From: Arthrobacter subterraneus
GTDB taxonomy: Bacteria > Actinomycetota > Actinomycetes > Actinomycetales > Micrococcaceae
Direction: 5' to 3'
DNA length: 64,000 nucleotides
Assembly (NCBI RefSeq): GCF_900099735.1
Contig: NZ_FNDT01000002.1
Location: 186,001-250,000 of the forward strand
Part shown: piece after piece, positions 46,527 through 55,208 of the stretch
Layout: each line of letters starts with the position of its first letter
Position numbering within the stretch: position 1 is the first letter of the stretch
Program-made: the position numbers and the translations under genes
The notes under the pieces: model-generated
Seen by the model: the letters and a program-made list of their open reading frames with translations, nothing else
Databases searched by the model: none
Told to the model about the DNA's origin: nothing

Positions 46527-46554
46527 AGGTTATCTACGAAATGTAGAAAGTCAG
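46527..46554 (-). promoter_or_regulatory. trpD promoter with TCTAC-N5-GTAGA dyad
   Basis: On the minus strand CTGACT (46554-46549), 16 bp and TAACCT (46532-46527) precede the leaderless trpD GTG. The spacer is filled by the dyad TCTAC-ATTTC-GTAGA (46533-46547). The same dyad occurs at the qcrC and ctaC promoters. It may act on trpD, or from upstream on the divergent ctaE. Confidence 0.6.
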
Positions 46555-46571
46555 CACGTTGTTACTCCGCG

Positions 46572-46587
46572 CCGTTGCAGGCAACGG
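46572..46587. promoter_or_regulatory. Perfect 16-bp palindrome upstream of ctaE
   Basis: CCGTTGC-AG-GCAACGG is a perfect 7-bp inverted repeat between trpD and ctaE. One half (CCGTTGC) recurs at the -35 of ctaC (55211-55205). Possible operator. Confidence 0.4.
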
Positions 46588-46653
46588 ATGCCCCTGCGCA
46601 GCTGGAATGGCGCGCCGACCCCGTTTCGCATTGGTGAACTGGGAACTTTTAGA

Positions 46654-46667
46654 GACATAATGTCAGG
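46654..46667 (+). promoter_or_regulatory. ctaE leaderless promoter box
   Basis: CATAAT (46656-46661) lies 6 nt before GTG 46668; TTGGTG (46631-46636) could be a weak -35 with a 19-bp spacer. The box is part of the palindrome GACATAATGTC (46654-46664). Confidence 0.5.
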
Positions 46668-47306
46668 GTGACGACAGCGACCCATGCCCCCAGCTCCACT
46701 GCGCATCCAACTCTGAACCGGCCGAACATGGTCTCGGTTGGCACGGTTGTATGGCTTTCCAGTGAACTTATGTTCTTCGCCGGACTATTCGCCATGTATT
46801 TCACATTGCGTTCCACCTCCGGCGAACTCTGGGCTGCCGAGACCGAGAAGCTGAATGTGCCCTTCGCCCTGATCAACACGATCATTCTCGTGTCCAGCTC
46901 TTTCACCTGCCAGATGGGTGTGTTCGCAGCGGAACGCCTCCAACCGCGCAGGGTCGGTGGAATTTTCAAGATCACCAAATGGGGCATGGTCGAGTGGTAT
47001 CTGCTGACCTTCTTCATGGGTGCGGTGTTTGTCGCCGTCCAGGCGTACGAATATGCAGAGCTTGTCGCCGAGGGTATTTCCATCTCATCGAATGCGTACG
47101 GCTCGGCGTTCTACATCACCACCGGCTTCCACGGCCTCCACGTAATCGGAGGCCTGATCGCCTTCCTGTTCATCATCGGCCGTGCCTACGCAGCCAAGCG
47201 GTTTGGGCACTTTGAAGCGACGTCGGCGATCGTCACTTCGTACTACTGGCACTTCGTCGACGTGGTGTGGATCGGGTTGTTCATCATCATCTACTTCTTG
47301 AAGTAA
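46668..47306 (+). CDS. ctaE: Cytochrome c oxidase subunit III
   Basis: This 212-residue subunit of the aa3 oxidase has five transmembrane helices. Typical motifs are [17 protein letters not shown] near 25-41, [14 protein letters not shown] near 145-158 and [14 protein letters not shown] near 190-203. It supports the catalytic subunit CtaD. The start GTG 46668 is supported by the CATAAT box 6 nt upstream. The qcrC promoter lies directly after its stop, so ctaE-qcrCAB can be one operon with an internal promoter. Confidence 0.95.
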
Positions 47307-47313
47307 ATTGCCC

Positions 47314-51948: not shown

Positions 51949-52060
51949 CGCGGCCGCCATGACGGAGATGCGAGGAGGAACGGCCCGTACCCGCCAGGGA
52001 AACGCAGAAGGGCCCGCACGCCAGGTGCGGACCCTTTACCGGTTAGGAACAACGCGCCGA

Positions 52061-52462
52061 TCAGTGCGCGTGGTCTCCCCTGCTGTATTCATAAACCCAA
52101 CCGACAAGAGCGATTGCGGCGAGTCCGGCGGAGACGTAAAGAATCCACCAACCGGCGGCGAGGCCGAGGAACCCGCCGGCCGCGGAGAGCCCGAGTACCA
52201 GCGGCCACCAGCTCCACGGGCTGAAGTGTCCCTGCTCGCCGGAGCCTTCATGGATTTCCGCATCCCGGCGGTCCTCAGGACGCAGCCCTACGCGACGTCC
52301 GGTGAAGCCCAGGTAGAACCCGATCATGCCGGCGAGGCCACCTACGAGGAGGATACCGAGAATGCCGACCCACTCGGACCAGTTGGTCAGGAAACCGTAG
52401 ATCAGGGATACCGGGACAAAGAAGGGTACTCCCCAGAAGAAGAGTCGTGTTTCAACCTTCAC
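52061..52462 (-). CDS. ctaF: Cytochrome c oxidase subunit IV (CtaF)
   Basis: This 133-residue small subunit of actinobacterial aa3 oxidase has four hydrophobic helices: about 5-25, 33-52, 86-105 and 108-126. It begins with KVETRLFFWGVPFFVP, typical of the family. GTG 52462 immediately follows the ctaD stop, so translation is coupled. Confidence 0.93.
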   Translation of the reverse strand: MKVETRLFFWGVPFFVPVSLIYGFLTNWSEWVGILGILLVGGLAGMIGFYLGFTGRRVGLRPEDRRDAEIHEGSGEQGHFSPWSWWPLVLGLSAAGGFLGLAAGWWILYVSAGLAAIALVGWVYEYSRGDHAH

Positions 52463-54190
52463 TTAACCGTCCTTCCGATCGGCGGATCCGAGCACCTGAG
52501 CCACCGGTGCAGGTGAACTAGGGGTGTGCCACTGCGCGAGCTCCGGGTGGTGCAGATCCAGTGCAGGGCGCTCCGAGCGGATACGAGGCAGCGATGTGAA
52601 ATTGTGCCGGGGCGGCGGGCAGGAAGTAGCCCACTCAAGCGACGCTCCGAAGCCCCAGGGATCGTCGACCTCGACCTTGGTGCCGCTGCGCCACGTAACG
52701 TACACGTTCCAGAAGAACGGAATCAGCGATGCGCCCAGGACGAAGGATGCAATTGTCGAGAACTGGTTCATGGCAGTGAACATGTCCTCAGGCAGATAGT
52801 CGGCGTACCGGCGGGGCATACCGATCACGCCGAGCCAATGCTGGATAAGGAACGTTCCATGGAAGCCGAGGAACAGCATCCAGAAGTGGATCTTGCCCAG
52901 CCGCTCGTTCAGCATCTTCCCGGTCCACTTCGGCCACCAGAAGTAGAATCCGGCGAACATAGCGAAGACCACGGTGCCGAAGACGACGTAGTGGAAGTGG
53001 GCGACCACGAAGTAGGTGTCGGAGACTTGGAAGTCCAGCGGCGGTGACGCCAGGATAATTCCGGTCAGGCCACCGAATAGGAACGTCACGAGGAACCCGA
53101 GACTCCAGAGCATCGGGGTCTCAAAGGTGATTGACCCTCGCCACATAGTGCCAATCCAGTTGAAGAACTTCACACCGGTAGGCACTGCGATCAGCATGGT
53201 CATGAAGGCGAAGAATGGCAGCAGCACGGCGCCCGTTACGTACATGTGGTGGGCCCATACCGTCACCGACAGAGCAGCGATCGCGATCGTAGCGTACACG
53301 AGACCCTTGTAGCCGAAGATCGGTTTACGGCTGAAAACCGGGAAGATCTCGGACACGATGCCGAAGAACGGCAGGGCGATGATGTACACCTCGGGATGCC
53401 CGAAGAACCAGAAGAGGTGCTGCCACAGGATGGCGCCCCCATTGTCCGGGTCGAAGATGTGCGCCCCGAACCGGCGATCGGCTCCCAGAGCAAACAGCGC
53501 GGCCGCCAGCGGCGGGAAGGCCATCAGCACGAGAATGGACGTGACCAGCGCGTTCCAGGTGAAGATCGGCATGCGCCACATCGTCATGCCCGGAGCACGC
53601 ATACAGATGATCGTGGTGATGAAGTTCACGGCGCCCAGGATGGTGCCGAAGCCCGATAACGCCAGACCAAAGACCCACAGGTCCCCACCCACTCCGGGTG
53701 AGAATGTTGTATTGGACAGCGGCGCATAAGCGAACCAGCCGAACGATGCGGCGCCCTGCGGGGTGATGAAGCCGGATACCGCGATAGTGCTGCCGAACAG
53801 GAAGAACCAGAACGCCAGGGCATTCAGGCGCGGGAAGGCGACGTCCGGTGCACCGATCTGCAGCGGCATGATGACGTTGGTGAAGCCCGCGAACAACGGC
53901 GTTGCAAACATCAGCAGCATCACCGTGCCGTGCATGGTGAACAGCTGGTTGTACTGCTCCTTGGTCTGCAGGATCTGCATCCCCGGCTCGAAGAGTTCGG
54001 CGCGGATGACCAGAGCCATCACGCCGCCCAGGCAGAAGAAGACAAACGACGCGATCAGGTACATGTACCCGATGGTCTTGTGGTCAGTGGAGGTTATCCA
54101 GTTGACGACGATCCGGCCCTTGGACCGCGGGACCACCCGGGGTGCAACGGTAGTGCCGGCGTCCTCGGCGGTGTATTCGTAAGTAGACAT
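52463..54190 (-). CDS. ctaD: Cytochrome c oxidase subunit I
   Basis: This 575-residue catalytic subunit has twelve helices and the heme a, heme a3 and CuB ligands: [11 protein letters not shown] (heme a His), [10 protein letters not shown] (CuB His with the cross-linked Tyr), AHHMYVTG (two CuB His) and [11 protein letters not shown] (heme a3 and a His). It reduces O2 to water and pumps protons. It lies 4 nt after ctaC; the C-terminal tail is long and Pro-rich, as in other actinobacteria. Confidence 0.97.
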
Positions 54191-54194
54191 CTAA

Positions 54195-55076
54195 TCAATC
54201 CTGCCCAATTTGCTCGTCAGCTCCGCTGGGGCTCTCGCCCGTAACAGTCTGCGGATTGCGGTCGTACTCTTCGCCCAGTTGGCCGTCCTCCAGGGTCTCC
54301 AGGTGCGCTTCGTATTCCTCTTCGGAAACAACCGCCACGTTGAACAGCATCTCCGAGTGGTACTCGCCGCACAGCTCGGCGCACTTGCCCTCGAAGACGC
54401 CTTCACGCGTGGGGGTAAGGGTGATGTAGTTTTCCCGCTCGGGGATCATGTCGCGCTTCTGCAGGAAGGCAGGCACCCAGAAGGAGTGGATAACGTCCCG
54501 GGAGTTGAGGCGGAACTCGACCGTCTGGTTGACGGGAAGATAGAGCGTCGGCAGTGTCTCAGGTACACCCGGCTCACCGTTAAGTTGGGCCTGGACGCCG
54601 GCGTCGTATTTGTTCTCGAGGACGTAGTTGAAGTCCCACGACCACTGCTTGCCGCGGACGTCGATGATGACATCCGGGTCCTCAACCCGGGCGTCGATCG
54701 CCTGCTGGTCGCGGTCGGTGAAGTAGAAGAACACCAGCACCATGAAGAGCGGGATGGTCAGGTAGAACACTTCCAACGGAAGGTTGTAGCTGATCTGGCG
54801 CGGGTAACCGGTTTCATTCCGACGGCGGCGGTACGCCACAATGCACCAGATGATAAGGCCCCAGGTGATCACGCCAACTATCAGGGCGGCGATCCAGGAG
54901 TTGACCCAAAGGTCAATGATCCGGCCGGTGTTACTGGTGTTGTCACGCTCAGCGGGCAACCAGCCTTTTTGGACTTCTGATGAACAACCAGACAAGAACA
55001 GCGCAGCCATGACAACGAGGCTTGAGACCTTGAAAATCTTTGCGCGTCGGCTGCCGGTTCGGTCCTGCGAACTCAC
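54195..55076 (-). CDS. ctaC: Cytochrome c oxidase subunit II
   Basis: This 293-residue subunit carries the CuA centre. A lipoprotein-type signal ends at LSGC (about residue 30), followed by two membrane helices (about 55-78 and 97-117). The CuA ligands lie in CAELCGEYHSEM near residues 230-241, with another His in DVIHSFWVPAF. It receives electrons from QcrC. GTG 55076 is preceded by AAGGAAGGG. The promoter carries the same dyad as qcrC. Confidence 0.95.
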   Translation of the reverse strand: MSSQDRTGSRRAKIFKVSSLVVMAALFLSGCSSEVQKGWLPAERDNTSNTGRIIDLWVNSWIAALIVGVITWGLIIWCIVAYRRRRNETGYPRQISYNLPLEVFYLTIPLFMVLVFFYFTDRDQQAIDARVEDPDVIIDVRGKQWSWDFNYVLENKYDAGVQAQLNGEPGVPETLPTLYLPVNQTVEFRLNSRDVIHSFWVPAFLQKRDMIPERENYITLTPTREGVFEGKCAELCGEYHSEMLFNVAVVSEEEYEAHLETLEDGQLGEEYDRNPQTVTGESPSGADEQIGQD

Positions 55077-55179
55077 AGACGGCCCTTCCTTTTCTTACGT
55101 GCGGTGCCACCGACGGTGACAGCATCTCCGGTGCACGCCGCTACTTAAGCTGCTGCCTAAACGCGATGCACTTTCAGTT

Positions 55180-55208
55180 TTACTACTCACTGTAGAGCTT
55201 ACCCGCAA
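55180..55208 (-). promoter_or_regulatory. ctaC promoter with TCTAC-N5-GTAG dyad
   Basis: On the minus strand TTGCGG (55208-55203), 17 bp and TAGTAA (55185-55180) form a candidate promoter. The dyad TCTAC-AGTGA-GTAG (55196-55183) begins 6 nt after the -35; in qcrC it begins 5 nt after. The leader is about 97 nt. The rest of the gap to erpA holds the terminator at 55230-55273. Confidence 0.55.

Follow-up and report, generated by a model that had tools for sequence, protein, structure and literature searches.

A TTCTAC-N5-GTAGAA dyad at the bc1-aa3 genes of Arthrobacter subterraneus as a putative operator of a BlaI-family repressor encoded beside cytochrome bd genes

The stretch analysed here (the window), 64,000 nucleotides of a contig of Arthrobacter subterraneus, carries genes of the bc1-aa3 respiratory supercomplex, and the dyad TCTACN5GTAG lies in three gaps flanking them. 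The first-pass annotation had placed this dyad at 46533–46547, 47325–47339 and, on the minus strand, 55183–55196, and it is indeed found at all three places; the genes around the gaps are also those that had been named, Pfam giving trpD, ctaE, qcrC, qcrA, qcrB, ctaD and ctaC (Table 1). Five TCTACN5GTAG matches are listed in the window, corresponding to three places because two are full palindromes. The chance expectation had been put at well under one, in agreement with the mean of 0.06 matches (largest 2) in the shuffled window. Within 2 mismatches of the extended 17-mer TTCTACN5GTAGAA, the 64-kb window contains only the three named sites.

Table 1. Dyads, genes and promoter-like sequence of the bc1-aa3 region (positions in the window)
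Feature	Position	Strand	Remarks
trpD	45462..46520	-	Pfam Glycos_transf_3; divergent from ctaE
Dyad 1, ATCTAC-GAAAT-GTAGAA	46532..46548		1 mismatch to 17-mer; between trpD (-) and ctaE (+)
ctaE, cytochrome c oxidase subunit III	46668..47306	+	Pfam COX3
Promoter-like TTGAAC-16-TAGAAT before qcrC	47314..47341	+	consensus match only; 0.5 such sites expected by shuffling
Dyad 2, TTCTAC-CCGGG-GTAGAA	47324..47340		exact 17-mer; ctaE/qcrC gap
qcrC, cytochrome c	47346..48206	+	Pfam Cytochrome_CBB3/Cytochrom_C
qcrA, Rieske subunit	48271..49308	+	Pfam
qcrB, cytochrome b	49301..50995	+	Pfam
ctaD, oxidase subunit I	52463..54190	-	Pfam COX1
ctaC, oxidase subunit II	54195..55076	-	Pfam COX2; downstream of dyad 3
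Dyad 3, CTCTAC-AGTGA-GTAGTA	55181..55197	-	2 mismatches; upstream of ctaC

Across the whole genome (64 contigs, with the reversed pattern as control) a simple argument from rarity fails for the exact 15-mer, which occurs 11 times against 10 in the control. By contrast, the exact 17-mer is found 8 times and its control not at all. The signal lies in the exact 17-mer, its intergenic placement and its conservation. With up to one mismatch the genome has 21 sites, 8 exact and 13 with a single mismatch; two of them belong to the window, and for the remaining 19 a simple purpose-made gene caller gave the neighbouring genes. Three of the 21 fall within predicted genes (L043, L044, L049) and the remaining 18 are intergenic, 13 of them with respiratory neighbours: blaI/cyd (3 sites), qcrC, ctaE, ctaB, ABC-ctaA beside a sufR-like gene, hemQ-hemH, flavohemoglobin, ResB with a cytochrome-c assembly protein, ResA-CcdA-ResB, ctaG/copD and the ATP synthase operon. 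The other five adjoin sucC, a UbiB-type kinase and three genes without a clear role (L037, L046, L047), and the ctaC site, with its two mismatches, comes in addition. At L037 (G000:C14) an exact dyad at 3875 precedes a gene, with a DUF1761 gene behind it, for a 111-amino-acid membrane-type protein that has no Pfam match; small membrane proteins of this type adjoin exact dyads in six loci of relatives, and we regard them as a candidate for a new respiratory accessory gene. The first gene behind the ATP-synthase dyad (L050, G000:C38, 2971–3483) encodes a 170-amino-acid protein scoring 36.6 bits, just below the NCBIfam cut-off of 40, with Cg1360-type ATP-synthase-associated proteins.

The region that carries the most operator-like dyads lies outside the window. 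Three exact 17-mers are packed within 74 bp (C37:80462–80535) between a Penicillinase_R gene and cydA. The former is a blaI-family gene on the minus strand (G000:C37, ~79992–80363), whose product matches PF03965 with 77.7 bits against a curated cut-off of 22.6; a BlaR1-like gene comes next, and cydAB, whose identities were both confirmed, are divergent from blaI, as is an ABC-transporter gene, probably cydDC. The BlaR1-like protein is a 326-amino-acid membrane protein with the HExxH motif HERAH and hydrophobic stretches at about 4–26, 34–61, 87–113 and 302–326. No outer penicillin-binding sensor domain was found in it, only M48/M56 and weak HtpX matches, and its profile gave no PDB match at E 0.01. 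The arrangement is that of a BlaI/BlaR pair, as judged from gene order putatively autoregulated, beside cytochrome bd. The two other PF03965 matches of this genome have no dyad in the stretches around them. We consider it very likely, from the dyads themselves, their conservation, their neighbours and their co-occurrence with blaI, that TTCTAC-RYNRY-GTAGAA is the operator of this BlaI-family (BlaI/MecI/CopY) repressor, whose gene stands beside the BlaR1-like gene and cydAB. The first-pass annotation had proposed an unrecognised regulator specific to the aa3-bc1 branch. Neither attribute is supported, the strongest sites being in the blaI/cydA gap, on the bd branch, and the candidate being a Penicillinase_R/BlaI protein related to that of Mycobacterium tuberculosis. 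For the alternative offered there, a spacer-remodelling activator, we found nothing in favour.

Conservation was followed in Micrococcaceae with one genome for each of 31 genera; counts are oriented, and brackets give the shuffled expectation. Orthologues of blaI, defined by at least 50% identity (n = 27), all have a dyad within 1 mismatch, 27/27 (0.01), and all but one an exact dyad, 26/27 (0.0); the count within 2 mismatches is likewise 27/27 (0.17). Three more distant BlaI relatives (L139, L140, L141) stand outside this count: L139 has a single site with 2 mismatches and the other two have none up to that limit. Before ctaC, 25 of 30 genera have the dyad with up to 2 mismatches (0.13), and in an alignment of 24 genera it forms, together with its flanks, a conserved island with the core GGTAaG-CTCTAC-N5-GTAGTAaAact. 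Before ctaE it is found within 2 mismatches in 15/30 genera (0.14), 12 of them within 1, the promoters being of two main kinds: one has the full dyad around position -136, the other a half-site around -79. In the 1300 bp ahead of atpB, 21 of the 30 genera that gave a locus have a dyad within 1 mismatch (0.0; the 31st genome, G005, gave none), 18 of these lying at -1100 to -800. At qcrC an exact dyad recurs in 3 further genomes of the same genus. The enrichment search that had been suggested before ctaC, ctaE, qcrC and cytochrome bd genes thus gave a positive result, weakest for qcrC, and the three original sites can be assigned to the set of a single regulator, with conservation at ctaC and partial conservation at ctaE and qcrC.

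The same targets recur when exact dyads are taken as the starting point. In 11 relatives we inspected all 67 listed exact dyads, which fall into 51 loci, and 43 of these loci adjoin orthologues of targets in this genome: hemQ-hemH (10), blaI with divergent cydA (8), flavohemoglobin (6), the L037-type small membrane protein (6), ResA-CcdA (3), qcrC (3), blaI alone in view (3), cydA alone in view (2), ABC-ctaA (1) and the L046 gene (1). The other 8 loci include two dyads before pyridoxamine-oxidase-like genes. Two further neighbours (L276, 1175–1600, and L287, 1657–2094), without a Pfam match, resemble truncated hemoglobins by eye. In the 40 of the 51 loci that were scored for placement, 41 of 42 exact dyads are intergenic. 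Judged by its sites, one BlaI-family regulator very probably covers both oxidase branches, heme synthesis, cytochrome-c maturation and ATP synthase.

The blaI locus is equally uniform in named records. In the best 80 of 568 loci, whose titles read Arthrobacter, Pseudarthrobacter, Paenarthrobacter, Sinomonas, Specibacter, a Renibacterium metagenome-assembled genome and Micrococcaceae bacterium, all of which we take to be Micrococcaceae, an exact dyad precedes blaI and a protease gene stands beside it in 80/80, the HExxH motif is present in 79/80 of these proteases and cydA is divergent in 74/80. Beyond the family, 96 of 296 genomes of a phylum sample match BlaI with E ≤ 1e-10, and 30 of these loci were inspected. 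In another family of the same order (f4) an exact dyad precedes a cydA-adjacent blaI in all three genomes with a match, and variants occur further out: TACTACN5GTAGTA with divergent cydA in an f8 genome and TACTACN5GTAGGA with cydA beyond the protease gene in an f7 genome. Fourteen of the 30 loci, all more distant matches, have no site within 3 mismatches before blaI. The Mycobacterium-like family f6 has CTACGCTGCGTAG before ctaC in 8/8 genomes, imperfect sites (2 or 3 mismatches) before ctaE and none before qcrC; most of its genomes have TACGACN5GTAGTA before blaI, and the BlaI of one (G152) matches PDB 2g9w over all 115 residues used (E 8.3e-60).

BlaI of A. subterraneus is itself related to M. 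tuberculosis BlaI (PDB 2g9w, E 2.5e-17), an entry that we take to be Rv1846c, and its putative operator TTCTAC/GTAGAA differs from the f6 form. In staphylococcal BlaI/MecI the spacing of half-sites is not the N5 found here. In other respects the staphylococcal BlaI/MecI with BlaR1/MecR1 are alike, combining a repressor, an HExxH membrane protease and a palindromic operator at their own promoter (in part PMC5473688), whereas the pair described here has no penicillin-sensor domain and other targets. The closest parallel is M. tuberculosis BlaI-BlaR (Rv1846c-Rv1845c). According to PMC5473688, mycobacterial BlaR lacks the outer sensor domain and BlaI is reported to bind the cytochrome bd and ATP-synthase promoters (citing Sala 2009); in two further papers BlaI represses Rv1303, which is co-transcribed with atp (PMC12565901), and is reviewed as a regulator of the atp operon (PMC5874750). 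Operator-like sites at cyd and atp, as in the M. tuberculosis-type regulon, are present here too. Unlike in M. tuberculosis, however, blaI here adjoins cydAB, and the set of sites includes aa3-bc1, heme synthesis, cytochrome-c maturation and flavohemoglobin genes. To this picture the present analysis adds the putative operator, the position of blaI next to cyd and, for Micrococcaceae, a wide set of respiratory targets that takes in aa3-bc1; no link of BlaI to aa3-bc1 genes or to Micrococcaceae was found in a partial literature coverage, which left subscription papers and preprints mostly outside.

From these likenesses we infer binding, repression, proteolysis and a signal in the following way. 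A BlaI dimer would occupy the dyad and block the genes of cytochrome bd, aa3, bc1, heme synthesis, cytochrome-c maturation and ATP synthase together with its own operon; activation of the membrane protease would inactivate BlaI, and the whole set would rise. The activating signal may be a disturbed respiratory chain, a guess to which we give a roughly even chance. A beta-lactam signal appears unlikely because the protease lacks a sensor domain, and this bears on another possible reading of the pair, namely that it is primarily a beta-lactam response system of which the respiratory sites are a side branch. The family name, the S. aureus BlaR1-BlaI case and the description of M. tuberculosis BlaI as a repressor of blaC (PMC5473688) all speak for that reading. 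Against it stand the sensor-less protease of 326 residues, the position of the gene pair next to divergent cydA in nearly all of the best named-record loci, and the targets: no beta-lactamase family was met in the Pfam-scanned neighbours of sites with up to one mismatch, several of these neighbours having no match at all and weaker sites lying outside the scan. We therefore judge a primary role in the beta-lactam response to be unlikely, and favour a BlaI-family repressor with respiratory targets.

The assignment to BlaI is further supported by the joint distribution of gene and sites. Four genera lack a close blaI (G002, G005, G014, and G011, which has only a 40% relative), and at the targets tested 4/4 are without a site of up to 2 mismatches, G002 being tested at ATP synthase only. 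G005, G011 and G014 keep ctaE and ctaC despite the missing dyads, and G002 has neither gene. By contrast, at least one target site is present in 25 of the 27 genera with a close blaI (Fisher 0.0005, phylogeny not corrected for). Counting exact dyads in 80 genomes, likewise uncorrected for relatedness, gives the same picture, with 0–1 in each of the 12 genomes of the four genera without a close blaI and 2–15 in each of the other 68. In one genus, g13 (G012, G042, G066), each genome carries 13 to 15 exact dyads, the median being 5. The dyad might instead be bound by a different regulator of two-component or redox type, HrrA- or CRP-like, blaI merely adjoining one of its targets. A precedent exists, as HrrSA of Corynebacterium glutamicum sets terminal-oxidase expression in the heme response and HrrA has a palindromic motif (PMC7337898); HrrSA is a two-component system. 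Moreover, the tie between dyad and BlaI rests on sequence, and co-occurrence was tested, among regulators, for blaI alone. Yet the sites track blaI and not cydA alone: in G004, which has no cydA within ~1.5 kb of blaI, an exact dyad is still present before blaI, with two more before cydA elsewhere, and genera without a close blaI lose the dyad even where the aa3-bc1 genes persist. We give a different regulator only a small chance, and BlaI is the candidate that the distribution favours.

The spacing of the arms is strictly kept. Exact dyads number 377 in the 80 genomes, against 31 for the reversed control, whereas the N4 spacing gives 2 exact matches (control 10). A chance origin of the dyads was rejected on their conservation and on this spacing control. 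With regard to promoters, the dyad before qcrC had been described as starting 5 nucleotides past the -35 and overlapping the -10, and the consensus scan agrees, dyad 2 covering most of the promoter spacer plus the -10; at ctaC and in the trpD/ctaE gap the same scan gave no sigma-70-like site. Sigma-70-like promoters overlap 3/42 sites in the relatives compared with 1.9 for shuffled flanks, and a general promoter overlap of the dyads is therefore not supported. It is barely credible that what the three sites share is a core-promoter element (an extended -10, e.g. GTAGAAT) resembling a dyad by chance: the 3' arm at qcrC does overlap a -10-like TAGAAT and most ATP-synthase sites read GTAGAAT, but the 5' arm is retained, as is the 5-bp spacing, and a promoter element would not disappear in blaI-less genera. 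Two starts are conceivable for qcrC, a GTG at 47346, ~5 nucleotides past the -10-like hexamer and possibly leaderless, or a GTG near 47419 after an AGGA-rich stretch.

Several observations weigh against the reading of the dyad as a BlaI operator. Genome-wide, the 17-mer within 2 mismatches is not enriched (80 against 138 in the control), and weak sites therefore need conservation to be credible. Conservation is poor at qcrC, where 6/30 genera have a dyad within 2 mismatches (0.05 expected), and qcrC is also the single place where a promoter is overlapped, and weakly so. Before ctaE, the full dyad is replaced in ten genera (L054, L055, L057–L062, L064, L071) by a conserved GTAGAAAAA-type half-site around -79, TTTCG-N4-TTTGTAGAAAAA in form; furthermore, the dyad of this gap is closer to the start of trpD in A. 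subterraneus, so that its target is not certain. Two genera, G016 and G021 (f1), have blaI with its own dyads and no site within 2 mismatches at ctaE, qcrC, ctaC or ATP synthase, from which it follows that the dyad set can shrink, and blaI presence was checked in one genome per genus. Outside Micrococcaceae, ctaE and ctaC both lack a dyad of up to 2 mismatches in f4, f7 and f8, in which blaI lies beside cyd. The protease, finally, scores 22.7 bits with M56, below the Pfam cut-off of 31, and 41 bits with M48, above the cut-off of 20.3, and owing to the former value it is named BlaR1-like only.

Elsewhere in the window, a strong inverted repeat, AAAGCCCCCGTCA..TGACGGGGGCTTT, lies at 55225–55280 between the ctaC upstream region and an erpA-like Fe-S biogenesis gene (55297–55680). 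It is perhaps a terminator whose loop exceeds the limit of the terminator scan. No known RNA element was matched by Rfam at the gathering score between 44000 and 58000.

The dyad of the bc1-aa3 genes thus gains a named candidate regulator, and an observation on three sites becomes a testable regulon. It is conceivable, though we put it forward tentatively, that actinobacterial BlaI/membrane-protease pairs are at root a switch for the state of respiration, in which a sensor-less protease would read the respiratory chain and free one repressor from both oxidase branches, heme synthesis, cytochrome-c assembly and ATP synthase, in an order that would depend on how many operators each promoter carries; mycobacterial beta-lactamase control might then be a later addition. 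Our results suggest that, in many Actinobacteria, proteins annotated as repressors of beta-lactamase may be regulators of respiration with a membrane signal. They also predict a conserved BlaI site before mycobacterial ctaC, in organisms whose bc1-aa3 and bd branches are of medical interest.

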